Virus record (IMG/VR): IMGVR_UViG_3300020411_003518
Location: 1-31,754 of that record
Length of the DNA stretch: 31,754 nucleotides
Source of the DNA: a virus
Strand: one strand, 5' to 3'
The first letter of the stretch is position 1. Every line of letters begins with the position of its first letter. The translations under genes and the position numbers were made by a program. The notes beneath the pieces are model-generated. The model was not told the origin of the DNA. It did not search any database and was given only the letters and a program-made list of their open reading frames with translations. This document shows positions 556 through 31,484 of this stretch, piece by piece.

Positions 556-3324
556 ATGGCTACTTCGCTTCACGGTTTATACCAAGAAAAATTCGGCAGA
601 CCACCAGATGCTGGTGGCTACGAATATTGGTCAGACCAGATTAGCAAAGGAGCCAGCTTAGACAGTATTGCCACTTTATTTGATAATTCGGCAGAAGGGC
701 AGAAACACGCAAAAGTTAAAGCAGCAGTAGAAGCAACTGGAAAGACTTACAATCCCGCAACGTCGGGGTGGGGTAAGGCTATGCACTCAGGCAACGTCAC
801 CGCAGACGATGCCGTAGCAGCAATTCAAAAGGAAGCCAGCAATACTGCTACTGCTGGAACGGGGAACATAACTGGCAGCAATGACAATACTACCCTTACG
901 TTGACCAGTAATGCTAGTAGCAATGACAACGATACAGCAGCAGCTGCAGTCGTAGCCAGTGGCGATGCGGGAGATACTACAGGTGATTCCTCTGCAGATC
1001 TCTACAACACAACTCTTAATAACACCGTTGCAGTCCTTAACTCAGGTGCTAATAATATTGCGGCGGAACCGTTACCTTTTTCAACTGCCGCTAGCACAGC
1101 AGCAGGGCAGACAGATGAAGAATTTGTTAATGATTTGTATATCAATATCCTAGGTAGAACTCAAGAAGAGACTGACGATGATCTTGCAGGACGCACGTAC
1201 TGGATAAAGGATATAGACAAGATGAGGAAGAATAATATGTCTGAGGAGGATATTAAAAAATCTGTATTAAGTAATTTCAATATCAGCGGTGAAAAACAAG
1301 TTAACAATATTTTGTACGGAGGGACAGACGACACATCAGGCAGTGGAACGACTATAGGTGCTGCGATGCACCATGAGTTCGAGATGGATCCAGATACGTT
1401 GCAAACCGCAGCTGATTTTACCAATGCTTTTGGGGACGCTACGACTACTACAAATACTGGTAAGGCTAACGAGAATACTTCAGAAGGTAATAAAGCATTA
1501 GCAAGTGTTATTCGTGGAACAGATCGTACTATTCTTGCTACGCATAATCCTGACAAATTAAAAGAATTAGATATCAAAGGTCTTAATGTTCTTTACGATA
1601 AACATCTAGACAGAGAGGTTCGTGACGAAGGGATTGATTATTGGATAGGAAGGCTAAATGCTGGAGATAGCTGGGAAAAGATTGAATCTGATATTGCTTC
1701 TTCCAAACAGAAAGAAACTGCTATTGCTAAGAAGACGGGGGGTTACAACGAGACTTTTATGGTCGGTGACGCGACAGACGCTACTAAAGGCGATATTAAT
1801 GTATTACCTGGGGCTGATGATCGGATACAAGTCGGAGAATCTGCGGAAGACTATTCAACAAGATGGCATAACACTTATGGACAATATTATGACGACGATG
1901 GTAATTACATAGAAGGGAGCTACACTCCACCTACTACAACAGATGTAGCTGCATGGGATGAGACGAAGCTTAATACGCTAATTGATAAATATAAATCAGC
2001 AGCTAATAGAGATCCTGAACAGAGTGAAATTGACAAGTGGAAGGCGTGGGCGAAGAATGACGAGGATAAATTTAATTCTGCACTTAATGCTATTGGGTCT
2101 TATGACTTTACAGAACAAGAGTCAGATTACGATGCTATTTACCAAAAATACGAAGATGAGACAGGCTTTACAGCTGACGAAGCAACTAAAGCTAAATTAA
2201 AAAGTGCTTTAGCTTTAGGTCAGGTTTCCAATTATGGAAGCATGATGAAGTCATTGGAATCGACTGGAGATATTGCAGATACGTTAGGACCTCTTTACAA
2301 GAGTCACGGTGGTGCAGACATGACTGCTGCTAACTTGGAAAACTGGACAAAGAAGATTGCTTCTGGAGATACCACATTAGAAGCCGCAGCAAAGGCTATC
2401 AGAAGTTTCGACTTCGACGAGCAGGATAAAGATGCTAATAGAGCTGCTCTTACAACCCTATTAAAGACGTATAGCATAGACGGTGGAACTCCTAGCGATG
2501 AATTGCTAGATAAGTGGCAACATGCTTTAGGATTTGATACAGCAACTCTTGGAGCAGGTGCAGTAGCTGGATCTGACGGATTTGTTGCGAATATGGGGCA
2601 AGCAGAAGACACGATGAAGGCATGGTTTTTAAAGCAGCCAGGAACTAGTGGTACGGATACAACAGATACAACAGATACAACAGATACAACAGATACAACT
2701 ACAACTGATACAACGACTACAGACACAACTACTACGGATACAACAACCACTGACACAAGTACTACAGATACTACAGACACCACCGATACAGATACAACAA
2801 CAACAACCAATACAGATACAACAGATACAACAGATACAACTACAACAGATACAACTACAACTAATACAGCCTTAGATTCTCTGCGTGAAGAAGTGACTTC
2901 ATTGACTAAAAAGAATCAAGGTTTAACAGATTTATATAACGATGCTAATAAAGAGACTCAAGCTGCTTTGGATGACGCTGCAGATGCCAATATTCAAATC
3001 AGCGATTGGGAAGGTAAATACAAAAAGTTAAAAGGTGACTACGAAGATCGTTTAGCAGAAGAAGCTTATAGCCCTGACAGAATGGCCGAGGAAGCAGAAA
3101 GAAAACGTATAGCTAGAGGTGGTGTCAGAGGTAACAGGTTTGACATTGATCCCGTTAATTTAGCTGCTGGAAGTTTTCAAAGCATTACAGGTGCTGATGT
3201 GGTGGGACCTCAAACTAGCGGTTCCTATCACGAGGCTAGAAGCAGGGCATTAGCGAGAAGAGGAAATGCAGCAGGAGCTGCTACGGCTAGCAGTTACTAC
3301 CAAGACAGGGGAACGTATGGCTAA
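556..3324 (+). CDS. DUF4214-repeat virion protein with Thr/Asp tract and C-terminal coiled coil
   Basis: A 922-residue protein. The N-terminus carries a DUF4214-type motif (LY-x-FGRPPD-x-GGYEYW, residues 8-30). Further copies lie near 190-225 (LYINILGR...YW) and 343-375 (LYDKHLDRE...DYW), and weaker helical copies near 476, 528, 580 and 635. Residues about 700-771 are almost pure Thr/Asp, followed by a heptad-like coiled coil (about 775-850) and a Gly/Arg/Ala tail. DUF4214 occurs in bacterial surface proteins and in cyanophage structural proteins; its molecular role is not established. The protein probably forms an elongated tail or appendage component. It starts 3 bp after the previous stop, and its last 8 bases overlap the next gene. 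The function is inferred; the domain call is fairly sure. Confidence 0.7.
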   Translation: MATSLHGLYQEKFGRPPDAGGYEYWSDQISKGASLDSIATLFDNSAEGQKHAKVKAAVEATGKTYNPATSGWGKAMHSGNVTADDAVAAIQKEASNTATAGTGNITGSNDNTTLTLTSNASSNDNDTAAAAVVASGDAGDTTGDSSADLYNTTLNNTVAVLNSGANNIAAEPLPFSTAASTAAGQTDEEFVNDLYINILGRTQEETDDDLAGRTYWIKDIDKMRKNNMSEEDIKKSVLSNFNISGEKQVNNILYGGTDDTSGSGTTIGAAMHHEFEMDPDTLQTAADFTNAFGDATTTTNTGKANENTSEGNKALASVIRGTDRTILATHNPDKLKELDIKGLNVLYDKHLDREVRDEGIDYWIGRLNAGDSWEKIESDIASSKQKETAIAKKTGGYNETFMVGDATDATKGDINVLPGADDRIQVGESAEDYSTRWHNTYGQYYDDDGNYIEGSYTPPTTTDVAAWDETKLNTLIDKYKSAANRDPEQSEIDKWKAWAKNDEDKFNSALNAIGSYDFTEQESDYDAIYQKYEDETGFTADEATKAKLKSALALGQVSNYGSMMKSLESTGDIADTLGPLYKSHGGADMTAANLENWTKKIASGDTTLEAAAKAIRSFDFDEQDKDANRAALTTLLKTYSIDGGTPSDELLDKWQHALGFDTATLGAGAVAGSDGFVANMGQAEDTMKAWFLKQPGTSGTDTTDTTDTTDTTDTTTTDTTTTDTTTTDTTTTDTSTTDTTDTTDTDTTTTTNTDTTDTTDTTTTDTTTTNTALDSLREEVTSLTKKNQGLTDLYNDANKETQAALDDAADANIQISDWEGKYKKLKGDYEDRLAEEAYSPDRMAEEAERKRIARGGVRGNRFDIDPVNLAAGSFQSITGADVVGPQTSGSYHEARSRALARRGNAAGAATASSYYQDRGTYG
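2653..2869 (+). repeat. In-frame Thr/Asp microsatellite
   Basis: About 217 bp built from ACA/ACT/ACG (Thr) and GAT/GAC (Asp) codons in 9-base (ACAACAGAT) and 12-15-base units, giving TDT-TDT and TTTTD patterns. The 5' end is nearly perfect at DNA level; later units use mixed synonymous codons, so selection on the protein is also likely. All units are multiples of three, so slippage would change linker length without breaking the frame. Confidence 0.85.
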
Positions 3325-25522: not shown

Positions 25523-26242
25523 ATGGAATGGCGTCCTTATAGACCAGAAACTTTAGGCGGATGGTTAGAAGGGAAGCTTGACCAGAAAGAAGTCGATTAC
25601 GTGTGGAAATGTATTAAAGAGGCTGAAGATAACAACGTAGACAAGAGATCTGAATTAGCAGGCAACATCAGCTCTAGCTTGCAATTAATAGATGTTGATA
25701 ATTATTTCGAGAGACAGGTTCTTGTGCCTTTGTGTCATTCATATCTCAAGTGTTTCCCTGAATACAAGCTGGCGAAGACTTCGCTACCTTATAGTCCTAA
25801 TACAGATATTGCTGATATTGAGTGGAGTGACATAGGATGGAATTTTTCTTTATCTTCATGGTGGGTTAATAAGCAAAAACAATACGAATACAATCCGCCT
25901 CATGACCATGCTGGGCAATTCTCTTTTGCGCTGTGGTTAAAGGAACCAGCCGAGTGGGACGAACAAAAACAGAAGACAAATTCAGTCAAGACTAATAACC
26001 CAGTGAATAATACTTTTCAATTCTCATTCAACGATATATTAGGTAACAGACAGTGTTTTACTTATCAACTAGGGAAACACGTAGAAAATATGATAGTCTT
26101 TTTCCCTGCTTCATTGCAGCATGGAGTATATCCTTTCTTTGATAACGAGGGAATTCGTATTAGCGTTGCTGGTAATATATTCATGCAAGCTAGATTATTG
26201 TCAGATTTAGAGGATGGAGAAAAAATAGATCTATCTCCTTAA
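25523..26242 (+). CDS. 2OG-Fe(II) oxygenase-like protein A
   Basis: Encodes 239 residues. The centre reads YEYNPPHDHAGQFSFALWLKEP (an H-x-H/H-x-D-type metal pair on a beta strand); the C-terminal part has VFFPASLQHGVYPFFDNEGIRISVAGNI, with the second His and the Arg that would hold 2-oxoglutarate. This is the double-stranded beta-helix layout of phage 2OG-Fe(II) oxygenases, abundant in cyanophages with unknown targets. Its ATG directly follows a copy of the 9-bp motif (25513-25521), so the ribosome site is covered by the operator. It ends exactly where the convergent oxygenase B ends. Confidence 0.65.
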   Translation: MEWRPYRPETLGGWLEGKLDQKEVDYVWKCIKEAEDNNVDKRSELAGNISSSLQLIDVDNYFERQVLVPLCHSYLKCFPEYKLAKTSLPYSPNTDIADIEWSDIGWNFSLSSWWVNKQKQYEYNPPHDHAGQFSFALWLKEPAEWDEQKQKTNSVKTNNPVNNTFQFSFNDILGNRQCFTYQLGKHVENMIVFFPASLQHGVYPFFDNEGIRISVAGNIFMQARLLSDLEDGEKIDLSP

Positions 26243-26899
26243 CTAATCCTTGAAAGAATTAACCAGTTGATTCTGATCAAGATACCAAGGAGGTTGATTG
26301 ACTTCGAATTGTGTTAATCGAGAAGGGAGGAAGTTATATGCAAAGCAAATTCTATTTTCATCAGTGTGATTATCATTTCCTTTATGAGCTAAATGACTAG
26401 GAAAAATAATTAAATCTCCTTCTTCCATATCGAAAGAAACAGGATTGTTAAAAGTATGTCTAACGATTAATTCATAGTTTGGTTGATGATGTTGGTCGCA
26501 CGAAGCCTCTCTTGGAGCATCGTGGAACGCAATACTCATTCCTTTACCTTTCAAGTAAACGACTGCAGACATGAAGGATTCAATATGAGAATGTATCTCA
26601 AAGTTAGTTTCGTTAGGAGTGCATAAGCTAGACCAAGCTGAACAGATATTCCATTGTGAAAGAATATTATCATTATGAGGCAAAGCAGGAAGTGAAGCGT
26701 TAATAATTTCTTGATGGAAAAAAGCTAGTTCCTTTGTATGAAGAATATCGTCCCAATATAAATTGTTATCCATATCAATTTGCTCTATCATTGATCTTTC
26801 TCTATGACGATCTTCGCATAGATCTAATGCCTTCTTTATTAGTTTTTCGTCTATCTTTGTCTTACCTATTAATGTAGGAAAAATAGTCGCAAATTCCAT
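26243..26899 (-). CDS. 2OG-Fe(II) oxygenase-like protein B
   Basis: Encodes 218 residues. NFEIHSHIESFMSAVVYLKGKG supplies the first metal His on a strand; EEGDLIIFPSHLAHKGNDNHTDENRICFAYNFLP gives the second His (HLAHKG) and the Arg near the end of the barrel. It resembles protein A only in these core motifs, so the two are not recent duplicates. It directly follows the PrimPol-VapE gene (TAAATG) and may share its transcript. Possible targets are nucleobases, proteins or metabolites; none is shown. Confidence 0.65.
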   Translation of the reverse strand: MEFATIFPTLIGKTKIDEKLIKKALDLCEDRHRERSMIEQIDMDNNLYWDDILHTKELAFFHQEIINASLPALPHNDNILSQWNICSAWSSLCTPNETNFEIHSHIESFMSAVVYLKGKGMSIAFHDAPREASCDQHHQPNYELIVRHTFNNPVSFDMEEGDLIIFPSHLAHKGNDNHTDENRICFAYNFLPSRLTQFEVNQPPWYLDQNQLVNSFKD

Positions 26900-29254
26900 T
26901 TAGTTAGGTCTGATCCAAATTCTTTTCGTCTTGCCATCGATGGTAGCTCTACATTGTTTGTAATTCAATCTCTTCAAAGCATCAGTGACTTGCATACCTA
27001 TCTGAGCTTGCTTGTCAACGGCTATTTCGAGCCATGAATAGAGATCGGAAAGAGTTATGTAACCTTGAGTTCTGTAATAACCAGTCATGTTTCTTGTTAA
27101 TGTTTCTGCAATTCTTGTTTCTAATGGACTGTCTTTAGTAAAGCTGTCAATGTAATCAGCAATATGACTAAGCTCGTAACTTGAGAAGTTATGAATCGGT
27201 TCATCTAAATACGCTTGGTATGCTGCAGCCCAAATAGAATTGCGATCTGCTTTAAGCCTGTCGAGATCTATGATCTTTAATTTAGGATTATCTTTCGATG
27301 CAACTTTTCCTGAGACAATAATAGGCATGAAGCGTCTATTTCCTGTGGGATCTACAAGGAAGTCCATGCCGTTAGTAGCTCCTGCGAGAACAAAGCTGCG
27401 AGGATAATTCTTTTCATTCTCATATTTCCGAGCACTTCTATCGACTGAAACACTAACCAAGTTCTTTAATTCTTCAACGTGCTTTCTCTTGAAGTATCTT
27501 TCGGCTTCATCTAAAACGACAATCCAGCCAGAGTGAAGTGCATGAGGTCTATCTTTGAGATATTCAATTCCTTGCTGAATCGTGGAGACCCAAGGATAAT
27601 TGCCAGGGTCTACAGGATCAGGTGGAGTAAGGTATTGGAAGAATGTTGATTTACCACAGTTCTGTCCACCGATAAAGATAGGCATCCAATCATGTCTTAC
27701 CCCAGGCTGTAGGACTCTTGCCACTGCCCCGATCATGAAGCGTTTCATAATGACATCAGCCAGAAGCTTACCGTCGGGCATTCTAGGATTCTGTGCTATA
27801 TCTTCTGGAGTACCTATTAACGTGGACGCAATAGTATCGAAGTAATCACAAGGAGTGCTTCTGCTGGCTACGAATTCTAAATAAGCTTTGCAAGGGTTAT
27901 ATTCGTTCCTGTCTGCCATTACCGTAGTAACGTCATACACTAAGGTTTTTGGGAAGGCTCTACCTTCTCGGGTAGGAATTTTGACGTAGGTAGTCGAAAC
28001 GTCCCGAATAATACTGGGGTTAGCTTTGGATCCATATTCCATATCCAAAGACATTGCATTGCGACGTAGGTCAGGGTAAGCAGTACGAAGATGCCTTTCG
28101 ATGATTTCAATTTCACTTAGACCATCTCTGTTCTGTGGAGTTCGCGCGTGAACCGCAGGTTCATCTGAGATTTCTTCGGCATGATGAGTTGGTGGTGTAT
28201 TAACTGGAGGAGGAGTGGGGGCGATAATATTCCAAGGTCTATTTTCGCTGAATAAACCTTGAGTAGGTGTGGCGACTACTTCTTCTTCTAGTTCCTCGTC
28301 TTCTCCGCCAAAATCGGAATGGTCGTAACCACTGACTGAGAAACGTTGGCCAATAAAATCTGTTCCGAAATCGCCTGACCCTTTTAGCTCTGAAGGAAGT
28401 TTTTTGCGCCATTCTGAATCGCATTCATTTGCACAGTAGAACAAAGTAGCAAGACTTGATCCATTGAAACCGTAGAAGAATTTTTCTGTGCAACGTCTGG
28501 AGTTGTTTCCTGTTCCATGATGTCCTTGAGAAGCCCAGTCACACCAAGCCGTGTAAATAGAACTACCACCAGCTCTTGCAGCTGCAGTGACCTTTGTAAA
28601 TCTTTGATATTCTCCTTCGCTGGTTGGTTCTATAACTTGCTCTAGACAATAAATAGCCTGATCAATGGTTATCTGATCGTAGTCTTTTGTTTCGTGGTCA
28701 TAGCGTGTTCTTCTTTTCTCAGCTTCTTTTTCAGCTTCGTTTATTAGATCTGCAGGAAGGATTGTAGAAGGCTGCCATAGGATTGTTTCTCCTTCGCTGT
28801 TGCCATAAAACAAGCGACATGCATCTGTGCAAGCTTGATCTCCTCCTAAAGCCTTAGACAGAATCGTCAGGATTGCCTTATAGAGATCCCCATCTGTGAC
28901 CTTTTGAGGCAGTTGAAATATTACCCTGTATCGATGTTTATTTTCAGCAGCATTATGACTAGCAGTTGTATAAGCAAAAGTGGCACTACGTGCTAATGGG
29001 TGTTTCAGGAAATCTTCAATCTTCAGCCCATTATCAATATCAACACAGGCAAGGTTTGCATAGTCAAATGCAGCACTTGATCTTCTATGGGATGTCATGG
29101 CTGCAGCCACGAATGCCCCGCCGTTTAATATATGATCTCTGAGTGATTCAAGGTCACTGCTTTGAAGTTTCCATTGCTCTGCAAAAGAAGGCTTCCATCC
29201 ACTTCGAGGTTTGTTATGAATTTCGGGGTGAGTGCTGAAACTGAGCTTTTCCAT
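26900..29254 (-). CDS. PrimPol-VapE replication primase/helicase
   Basis: Encodes 784 residues, with a strong ribosome site (AGGAG at 29261-29265, six bases from ATG). The N-terminal archaeo-eukaryotic primase domain shows the metal pair VDID (D72, D74) and the basic strand NKHRYRVIFQLP (H107-R110). The middle (about 300-370) is acidic and Pro-rich linker. The C-terminal VapE-type ATPase has Walker A GGQNCGKST (529-537), Walker B WIVVLDEAE (577-585), sensor LAGATN (623-628) and an Arg-finger-like GNRRF (638-642). Such proteins prime and unwind DNA at phage or satellite origins. It could act at the motif cluster 25182-25521. The function call is strong. Confidence 0.85.
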   Translation of the reverse strand: MEKLSFSTHPEIHNKPRSGWKPSFAEQWKLQSSDLESLRDHILNGGAFVAAAMTSHRRSSAAFDYANLACVDIDNGLKIEDFLKHPLARSATFAYTTASHNAAENKHRYRVIFQLPQKVTDGDLYKAILTILSKALGGDQACTDACRLFYGNSEGETILWQPSTILPADLINEAEKEAEKRRTRYDHETKDYDQITIDQAIYCLEQVIEPTSEGEYQRFTKVTAAARAGGSSIYTAWCDWASQGHHGTGNNSRRCTEKFFYGFNGSSLATLFYCANECDSEWRKKLPSELKGSGDFGTDFIGQRFSVSGYDHSDFGGEDEELEEEVVATPTQGLFSENRPWNIIAPTPPPVNTPPTHHAEEISDEPAVHARTPQNRDGLSEIEIIERHLRTAYPDLRRNAMSLDMEYGSKANPSIIRDVSTTYVKIPTREGRAFPKTLVYDVTTVMADRNEYNPCKAYLEFVASRSTPCDYFDTIASTLIGTPEDIAQNPRMPDGKLLADVIMKRFMIGAVARVLQPGVRHDWMPIFIGGQNCGKSTFFQYLTPPDPVDPGNYPWVSTIQQGIEYLKDRPHALHSGWIVVLDEAERYFKRKHVEELKNLVSVSVDRSARKYENEKNYPRSFVLAGATNGMDFLVDPTGNRRFMPIIVSGKVASKDNPKLKIIDLDRLKADRNSIWAAAYQAYLDEPIHNFSSYELSHIADYIDSFTKDSPLETRIAETLTRNMTGYYRTQGYITLSDLYSWLEIAVDKQAQIGMQVTDALKRLNYKQCRATIDGKTKRIWIRPN

Positions 29255-29303: not shown

Positions 29304-29513
29304 CTAACTTTGATATAGAGCATGTTCTAGAAGCATCTTGTCTAGAACTTCTTTCATAAAGAAGACCATCTCGCCTTCTTTCTTTTTGCTTGGAAGATTG
29401 AAATCATGAGCAGCCATGTACTCGACAAGACTAGTTTTAAGTATTCGCATTGCTTCCGCATTTAGCTCTAAAGCTAAACGAAATTCATCCTTATCATCGA
29501 GTCGACTAGTCAT
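29304..29513 (-). CDS. Small helical hypothetical protein
   Basis: Encodes 69 residues from ATG 29513, overlapping the upstream gene's stop by one base (TAATG). Helical: EFRLALELNAEAMRILKTSLVEY, then a Lys/Glu-rich turn and EMVFFMKEVLDKMLLEHAL. No motif recognised. The gap of 49 bp to the primase holds that gene's ribosome site. Confidence 0.5.
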   Translation of the reverse strand: MTSRLDDKDEFRLALELNAEAMRILKTSLVEYMAAHDFNLPSKKKEGEMVFFMKEVLDKMLLEHALYQS

Positions 29514-30271
29514 TAGTCAGTTACTGTGATGGTATTTTTCATAGTTGAATGATATTCGCAGATGTAATGATACGTTCCTGCTTTATTAAATGATACAGCT
29601 AATAAATTTGTATCACTAATTGTACCTTTAGCTCCGTTGTTCTTTATTCTTGCCCACCCAGGAGATTCGTCACCTGCTCCAAGAGTGGCAGACGTTTTAA
29701 TCCAGAGAGGATGTGCAGTTCCCGTGTTATTTGTTATATAGAGTAATTGATTCGTTTTCAGGGTTAAAGCTGGGTTGATCGCATCTGTTAATGATTCACC
29801 CGTAAAGAGATAGTTTCCACTGTCAGCTGTAACGGTATATACTTTCTCAGTGAAAGATGAGACATCTCCTTCTAGAAGCCAGTGATCAGATCCCAAGTAG
29901 GTGAGTTTAAACGAAGCATACGGGAAGCTTGTAAACCACACAAGAGCTGAATTAGTAGCTGGATTGACATGAGCACAGTGGATTTTTACATTCCCTGTCC
30001 CTACAACACTTAATTGGTTGCTTTGGCCTGCAATAAAAACGACTTGAGCGCCTTCATAGAAACCTGTGTTTTCTAGCGTTACGACAGTATCAGTGTCATT
30101 GATTTTTATATAATCACCTTGGTCATCGATAGATACTGCATGAATCGTCTCTCCGACTTCTGACCTAAGGGTTGGAATATCCGTTATCTCGCTGAAGCCA
30201 GAGATCTCTCTAGGAGCATAAAGTTTAAAATTTTGCGGATCGTATGTAACTGGTAAACGACGAGTGCTCAT
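29513..30271 (-). CDS. Fibre-type protein fused to a cupredoxin (copper-binding-like) domain
   Basis: Encodes 252 residues. Residues 1-137 look like a phage fibre beta domain (SEVGETIHAVSIDDQGDYIKI ... ASFKLTYLGSDHWLLEGDV). Residues 142-252 form a cupredoxin-like domain: KVYTVTADSGNYLFTGE, NQLLYITNNTGTAHPLWIK (H187), then AGTYHYICEYHSTMKNTITV with C238, H241 and M244. These four residues match type I copper ligands, with short C-x2-H-x2-M spacing. Plastocyanin-like domains occur in cyanophage structural proteins. Copper binding is inferred; a stabilising fold without metal is possible. Confidence 0.7.
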   Translation of the reverse strand: MSTRRLPVTYDPQNFKLYAPREISGFSEITDIPTLRSEVGETIHAVSIDDQGDYIKINDTDTVVTLENTGFYEGAQVVFIAGQSNQLSVVGTGNVKIHCAHVNPATNSALVWFTSFPYASFKLTYLGSDHWLLEGDVSSFTEKVYTVTADSGNYLFTGESLTDAINPALTLKTNQLLYITNNTGTAHPLWIKTSATLGAGDESPGWARIKNNGAKGTISDTNLLAVSFNKAGTYHYICEYHSTMKNTITVTD

Positions 30272-31019: not shown

Positions 31020-31064
31020 ATGGAATATATAATTAAGAAGTTAACAATTCTTTACAAAGCATGA
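31020..31064 (+). CDS. Possible 14-residue leader peptide before hli genes
   Basis: ATG 31020 opens MEYIIKKLTILYKA and stops at TGA 31062-31064, overlapping the first hli start as ATGA. AGAGGA lies at 31002-31007. Because the first hli start has no ribosome site of its own, this leader could couple translation. A TATAAT sequence at 31028-31033 lies within it and might instead be a promoter -10. Weak evidence. Confidence 0.25.
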   Translation: MEYIIKKLTILYKA

Positions 31065-31168
31065 CACCTGAAGCAGAGAAGTTCAATGGTTGGATGGCGA
31101 TGCTTGGTATCGTTGCAGCTTTCGGAGCATACAGCGTAACTGGTCAAATCATTCCTGGAGTTTTTTAA
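31061..31168 (+). CDS. hli: High-light-inducible protein 1 (short, Arg-less motif)
   Basis: A 35-residue frame. The core EKFNGWMAMLGIVAAFGAY then SVTGQIIPGVF is the one-helix Hli/chlorophyll-binding fold. In the family consensus ExxNGRxAM, Glu and Asn ligate chlorophyll and the Arg pairs with a Glu of a partner helix. Here E6 and N9 are kept but Arg is Trp (W11). Hli proteins protect photosystems during stress; cyanophage copies are thought to maintain photosynthesis during infection. Its stop overlaps the next start as TAATG. No own ribosome site is visible. Confidence 0.75.
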   Translation: MTPEAEKFNGWMAMLGIVAAFGAYSVTGQIIPGVF

Positions 31169-31287
31169 TGAAGAAAACTAATATTGATATCTGGTTACGT
31201 TCTAATGGACGTGCAGCCATGATGTTCTTTTGGATCGTATCTGGTTCATACGTATTAACTGGGCAACTTGTTCCTGGAGTGTATTGA
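31168..31287 (+). CDS. hli: High-light-inducible protein 2 (short, Glu-less motif)
   Basis: A 39-residue frame starting inside the previous stop (TAATG). The core IDIWLRSNGRAAMMFFWIV then GSYVLTGQLVPGVY carries NGRxAM, but the Glu three residues before Asn is Leu (LRSN). The Arg is kept. It thus lacks the residue that the first Hli keeps and keeps the one the first lacks. Ends by overlapping the third hli start (TGATG). The short N-terminus leaves room for little more than the membrane helix. Confidence 0.75.
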   Translation: MKKTNIDIWLRSNGRAAMMFFWIVSGSYVLTGQLVPGVY

Positions 31288-31484
31288 TGACTTCTTCTAC
31301 TGTTACTACCGAATACGGTAAGCAGAATATTTTCGGCAAAGAAACTCAACCTCAAGTTATGGAAGACTACAAAGGTTACATCGAAGAAGCTGAATTAGCC
31401 AATGGCCGCTGGGCAATGATCGGGTTTGTTGCTCTTATCGGAGCTTACTTGACTACTGGCCAAATCCTTCCGGGCATCTTCTAG
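31287..31484 (+). CDS. hli: High-light-inducible protein 3 (canonical)
   Basis: A 65-residue protein from ATG 31287 (a start further upstream in this frame would overlap hli 2 and is not needed). A polar N-terminus of about 35 residues leads to EEAELANGRWAMIGFVALIG and AYLTTGQILPGIF, the complete Hli motif with Glu, Asn and Arg intact. It would insert in the thylakoid membrane and bind chlorophyll and carotenoid as a dimer. Coupled start/stop with hli 2 predicts co-production. Its last 90 bp are also read on the other strand as the end of the nuclease gene. Confidence 0.85.
   Translation: MTSSTVTTEYGKQNIFGKETQPQVMEDYKGYIEEAELANGRWAMIGFVALIGAYLTTGQILPGIF

Follow-up and report, generated by a model that had tools for sequence, protein, structure and literature searches.

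The window, meaning the whole stretch of 31,754 bases that was analysed, is an IMG/VR record from a marine cyanobacterial virus and a linear fragment, with a trio of hli genes at its right end. Several hli genes are often carried by cyanophages. The three genes and their motifs lie as follows.

31061..31168, + strand: Hli1, class A (ExxNGW), 35 amino acids; open reading frame matching phrog_178 (E 2.6e-18)
31076..31093, + strand: Hli1 motif E-K-F-N-G-W in the sequence, with Glu and Asn present and Trp at the Arg slot
31168..31287, + strand: Hli2, class B (LxxNGR), 39 amino acids; open reading frame matching phrog_178 (E 1.7e-10)
31195..31212, + strand: Hli2 motif L-R-S-N-G-R in the sequence, with Leu at the Glu slot and Asn and Arg present
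31287..31484, + strand: Hli3, canonical ExxNGR, 65 amino acids; open reading frame matching phrog_178 (E 4.5e-25) and Pfam PF00504
31392..31409, + strand: Hli3 motif E-L-A-N-G-R, complete in the sequence (ELANGRWAMIG)

Translation of the open reading frames gave MTPEAEKFNGWMAMLGIVAAFGAYSVTGQIIPGVF for Hli1 (sequence start MTPEAEKFNGWMAMLG) and MKKTNIDIWLRSNGRAAMMFFWIVSGSYVLTGQLVPGVY for Hli2 (sequence start MKKTNIDIWLRSNGRAAMMFF). In Hli1 the codons of the motif are Glu at 31076-31078, Asn at 31085-31087 and Trp, in the Arg slot, at 31091-31093; in Hli2 they are Leu, in the Glu slot, at 31195-31197, Asn at 31204-31206 and Arg at 31210-31212. The motifs given for both proteins by an earlier sequence-only reading were thus exact, and the TAATG junction that it had described, a 1-nt overlap of the Hli1 stop and the Hli2 start, was also confirmed. 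The Hli2 stop and the Hli3 start overlap by one nucleotide as well (TGATG). All three proteins gave a profile match to phrog_178, the high-light-inducible PHROG, while the cut-off of Pfam Chloroa_b-bind (PF00504) was passed by Hli3 only. Of the complete chlorophyll-binding motif ExxNxR, which is present in Hli3, Hli1 lacks the Arg and Hli2 the Glu; both were therefore filed as variant-class members of the PHROG and not as standard Hlips. A 53.8-kb contig with a 100% match to the Hli3 of the window carried these three Hlis only.

Upstream of Hli1, a 14-codon open frame (MEYIIKKLTILYKA, 31020-31064, + strand) has its stop codon overlapping the Hli1 start codon (ATGA) and may be a leader peptide or a product of chance. 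This stretch was identical in one relative of the window (L140) and different in three others (L137, L139 and L142). Elsewhere in the window, a 252-amino-acid protein (29513-30271, − strand) had a baseplate/fibre-connector-like match to phrog_677, which overlaps a C-terminal cupredoxin-like region at the Pfam cut-off. A further gene encodes a VapE-type helicase/primase of 784 amino acids (26900-29254, − strand), the best phage match of which was cyanophage S-LBS1 with 28% identity over half its length, so that the virus appears to be only distantly related to those cyanophages of the collection that have been cultured. Two 2OG-Fe(II) oxygenase-like genes (25523-26242, + strand, and 26243-26899, − strand) stand tail to tail with zero gap, and a 922-amino-acid protein (556-3324, + strand) contains a long internal Thr-Asp repeat (TDTTDTT...) and had no PHROG match.

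Hli1 and Hli2 showed 85.7% and 51.4% identity to hli03 and hli04 of P-SSM2, respectively. In that phage one base is shared by hli03 (EKFNGWMAMIG) and hli04 (LRANGRAAMIG), and the latter also overlaps hli05 (EKWNGIAAIVGC); P-SSM7 has the same arrangement. These three genes correspond to T4-GC 267, 270 and 271. The window resembles both phages in that a class A gene is followed by a class B gene with a 1-nt overlap. It differs from them in that the class C gene, hli05, which comes next in P-SSM2 and P-SSM7, is absent directly downstream of Hli2, where the canonical Hli3 is found instead. Its class B protein is also peculiar in the sequences N-I-D-I-W and AMMFFW, and by the proteins examined the virus, unlike the two phages, is not T4-like. 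The pair of classes A and B recurred, mostly joined by a 1-nt overlap as in the window, in P-SSM2, P-SSM7, P-TIM40, P-TIM68 and many IMG/VR contigs, so the arrangement of Hli1 and Hli2 is more than a chance pairing in one contig, an explanation that was ruled out. Among the relatives of the window the cluster varied: A-B-C-Hli3 was found in L137 and L140, A-B-Hli3 in the window, L139 and L143, and A-Hli3 in L142 and L145, as if B and C had been gained or lost as a block.

With tblastn, more than 500 phage records were found to contain hli-like sequences. Hli cores were then sought in all reading frames of the loci fetched, with a profile in which the Glu and Arg positions were masked. The classes were defined without the three motif positions: class A by the N-terminus MTPEA, class B by an N-terminus ending in I[FLWYV], and class C by GC at core positions 11-12, as in hli05 of P-SSM2. 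Hli1 (MTPEAEKFNGW, the MTPEA N-terminus with ExxNGW) belongs to class A and Hli2 (MKKTNIDIW-LRSNGR) to class B, and the variant motifs of both proved to be common to whole classes and not peculiar to single sequences. At the loci fetched, all 73 class A cores had Glu and Asn, and all 73 had Trp at the Arg slot. All 57 class C cores had Glu and Asn and none had Arg, the Arg slot being occupied by Ile, Tyr, Ala or Gln. Class B had Arg in each of its 100 cores. Its Glu slot held L, E, F, Q, V, T, I, D or N and its Asn slot Q, I or N, and Glu and Asn never occurred together in one member. The Arg codons of class B were mixed (CGT 94, AGA 66, CGA 6, AGG 2, CGC 1), so this residue is conserved at the protein level. 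Nearly all Hlis outside the three classes had Glu and Asn, and most had Arg. Two Hli helices fused in one frame were not found among the loci searched.

Altogether 668 Hli cores were obtained, 403 with both Glu and Arg, 184 with Glu only, 81 with Arg only and none with neither. About 22 cores lacking both residues would be expected under independence, a figure that is not a probability because the sequences share descent. The complementary losses pointed out in the sequence-only reading therefore hold class-wide. Decay of the motif under relaxed selection on redundant hli copies, with A-B-C as a merely inherited order, would fit the many hli copies per genome, the fact that much of the sampled gene order is shared by descent, and the replacement of both Glu and Asn of class B by several different residues. 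Such decay is nevertheless very unlikely to be the explanation, as the losses were not random (B always had Arg, and neither Glu nor Asn was ever missing from A or C), no core had lost both Glu and Arg, and the substitutions at two sites predicted to face each other were coupled across genes, as described below.

The order of the genes was examined in the clusters, and the collection-wide counts of A, B and C contexts given here are among the matches listed. In each of 36 records searched whole, the hli genes were clustered at a single place, with weak partial matches as the only exceptions, and the local contexts are thus nearly complete inventories. A was located directly upstream of B at 95 places in 108 clusters, compared with a mean of 25 in shuffled gene order. 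A directly preceded B in 89 of 105 assessable class B contexts, and 114 of 135 A-B junctions were 1-nt overlaps. An obligate heterodimer of Hli1 and Hli2, made sequentially by coupled translation, as had been proposed, would account for these values and for the phage clusters that contain A-B without class C. Five such clusters had A-B with no Hli directly downstream (L116, L394, L421, L458 and L490, with ERINGW followed by FRANGR); the class B Asn was kept in these, as it was in the window and in NATL1A-7.

The dependence was not mutual, however. In a motif-neutral scan B followed A in only 2 of 20 ExxNGW contexts among the matches listed, and the single Hli of P-SSP7 is of the ExxNGW type. 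Class A is a common phage Hli, and it is also common and multi-copy in Prochlorococcus; as it is often present without a neighbour of the Hli2 class, it does not need Hli2. Class B, for its part, occurred without class A in NATL1A-7, whose Hlis are one canonical and one class B protein. In Prochlorococcus none of the 16 distinct class B contexts had an Hli directly upstream, although A-B-C was present in three Prochlorococcus-labelled contigs (L261, L286 and L294). Short overlaps were found between other hli genes of the clusters too (Hli2-Hli3 in the window; annotated 1-nt overlaps elsewhere), and the class never found without B was C, not A. ExxNGW and LxxNGR copies were not always neighbours, even though A preceded B far more often than in shuffled order. 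Occurrence of one variant alone in many genomes, which the sequence-only reading had named as a refutation, was observed for the Hli1 class, and an obligate Hli1-Hli2 pair was rejected since each class was found without the other. We consider this reading unlikely.

The strict companion of class B is class C. In a scan for class C that ignored B, B was directly upstream in 82 of 82 assessable contexts among the matches listed, and the dependence runs from C to B. Of 110 class B contexts, 10 had no neighbour lacking Arg on either side, and several of these were at contig ends. The class C profile was not specific in Prochlorococcus, where it matched 116 of 121 genomes, and these matches were kept out of the counts. 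The Prochlorococcus class B proteins (NKDI[FL][DN][RK]AIGRPAMM) are of the same class as Hli2 and likewise have an invariant Arg; their Glu slot is Asp or Asn and their Asn slot Ile. Unlike Hli2, they had no class A gene directly upstream in the contexts read. An ExxNG[RK] Hli was downstream in all 16 distinct contexts, so that here the neighbouring Hli keeps Arg or Lys.

In a B-C pair of the light-harvesting complex (LHC) type, the B Glu slot would be expected opposite the C Arg slot. The 80 distinct B-C pairs comprised, in this order of slots, Leu-Ile (51), Gln-Ala (11), Glu-Tyr (8), Phe-Gln (4), Thr-Tyr (3) and others (3). Covariation was determined as mutual information with APC correction. 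The pair formed by the B Glu slot and the C Arg slot had a corrected value of 0.45 and ranked first of about 300 variable position pairs, the next value being 0.25. With redundancy weights it was again first at each of five identity thresholds between 75 and 95%, and second in one alternative ranking at 75% identity. The other position pairs serve as a control because the same ancestry is common to all of them. When the Prochlorococcus pairs were added (Asp-Arg 7, Asn-Lys 4, Asn-Arg 2), the same two slots were still first. On a DNA tree built without the codons of these two slots, a simple parsimony reconstruction gave 7 changes at the B Glu slot and 6 at the C Arg slot, 4 of them on shared branches. 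This was the highest rank among 224 pairs, with a hypergeometric P of 2e-5 and a branch-length-weighted P of 2e-4. The covariation as a whole reflects few independent events, the effective number of pairs being about 15 at 85% identity. For A-B and A-C no covariation was found at the motif sites; at the corresponding site of A-B it is unmeasurable because A always has Trp there. The B-C result is what would be expected if the two sites touched in a mixed dimer. It was obtained with B-C pairs, of which the window has none. E+0, H/N+3 and R+5 are the conserved functional sites of the superfamily (PMC3020630), and an LHC-type crossing would be expected to bring the Glu and Arg slots into contact.

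From these results we infer that class B is probably the Arg-donating half of mixed one-helix Hli dimers with a Glu-bearing partner. An Arg without its own Glu, an adjoining gene with Glu and without Arg, and coevolving sites in the two are together best explained by such a dimer, and they suggest that the Arg-only type depends on mixed pairs of this kind to function. Class B, with the N-terminus N-K-x-I-[FLW] and the core xxxxGR, keeps the Arg of ExxNxR and would tolerate loss of the ligands Glu and Asn, and its Arg would reach across to the Glu of a different Hli. The downstream Glu-bearing gene to which B is tied would supply the partner, which in phages would be class C, with Ile, Tyr, Ala or Gln for Arg, and in Prochlorococcus the ExxNG[RK] Hli. 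Hli1 belongs to a common stand-alone class and would be a possible, not obligatory, partner of Hli2. The mixed dimer might bind and quench chlorophyll and so protect photosystem II in infected cells. The class B Arg could also owe its conservation to something else, for instance a contact to a photosystem subunit. That class B is not a pigment-dimer subunit at all, its Arg binding another protein or a lipid (as a docking helix close to photosystem II might) and its linkage to C reflecting a shared pathway, would agree with the loss of both usual chlorophyll ligands in many members and with the docking of known Hlips to other proteins, by which they act according to PMC12142464. It does not itself predict, however, that the B Glu slot and the C Arg slot rank first in covariation, and it appears decidedly unlikely.

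As the window has no class C gene, its Hli2 would most likely pair with Hli1 or with the canonical Hli3. A mixed Hli1-Hli2 dimer would restore one Glu-Arg bridge, as the sequence-only reading had stated, but this is not specific to that pair. Hli3 together with either protein would also give one bridge, so counting bridges cannot choose the partner of Hli2, and Hli3 could be the partner of either. More broadly, marine picocyanobacteria and their phages may share a dedicated asymmetric heterodimer of class B and the Glu-bearing Hli encoded downstream. The Arg would be contributed by one subunit and the ligands Glu and Asn by its partner, the vacated Glu and Arg sites would still touch and coevolve, and the pair would be spread by phages between unrelated virus groups. 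We regard the chances for and against this wider proposal as even.

The genes themselves are not new. Cyanophage genes of these clusters were already annotated as high light inducible proteins, and T4-GC 270 and 271 were listed earlier among sporadic cyanophage Hli genes (PMC3037559). The division of Glu and Arg between partners appears to be new, and no description of it was found in the open-access papers searched, in agreement with what the sequence-only reading had supposed. If it is true that a class completes its motif only with a partner, the view of several hli copies per phage would change to one of fixed pairs, with the pairs named. The variants would represent a natural dismantling of the Glu-Arg bridge of the light-harvesting superfamily and would be useful for questions of pigment binding and dimer choice, and the coupling of the two facing sites makes a prediction on dimer geometry that can be tested directly.

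Mixed dimers of this general type have precedents. A role as a dimer zipper has been suggested for the motif (PMC8617258), and E/R pairs have been proposed to bridge homo- and heterodimers (PMC5794176). In the available parts of two reports (PMC12142464, PMC11449106), the Synechocystis pairs HliC/HliD, HliA/C and HliB/C are one-helix Hlis in mixed pigment-binding dimers, and HliD is also described as a homodimer; a split of Glu and Arg between the partners is not described there. Unlike Hli1 and Hli2, HliD as solved (9sau) has a complete EKLNGR motif. For OHP1/OHP2 of plants and algae, such a split was likewise not found in the available text of PMC12142464. These proteins are of a different lineage from the phage Hlis, and they form a natural one-helix LHC-like heterodimer of two non-redundant partners.
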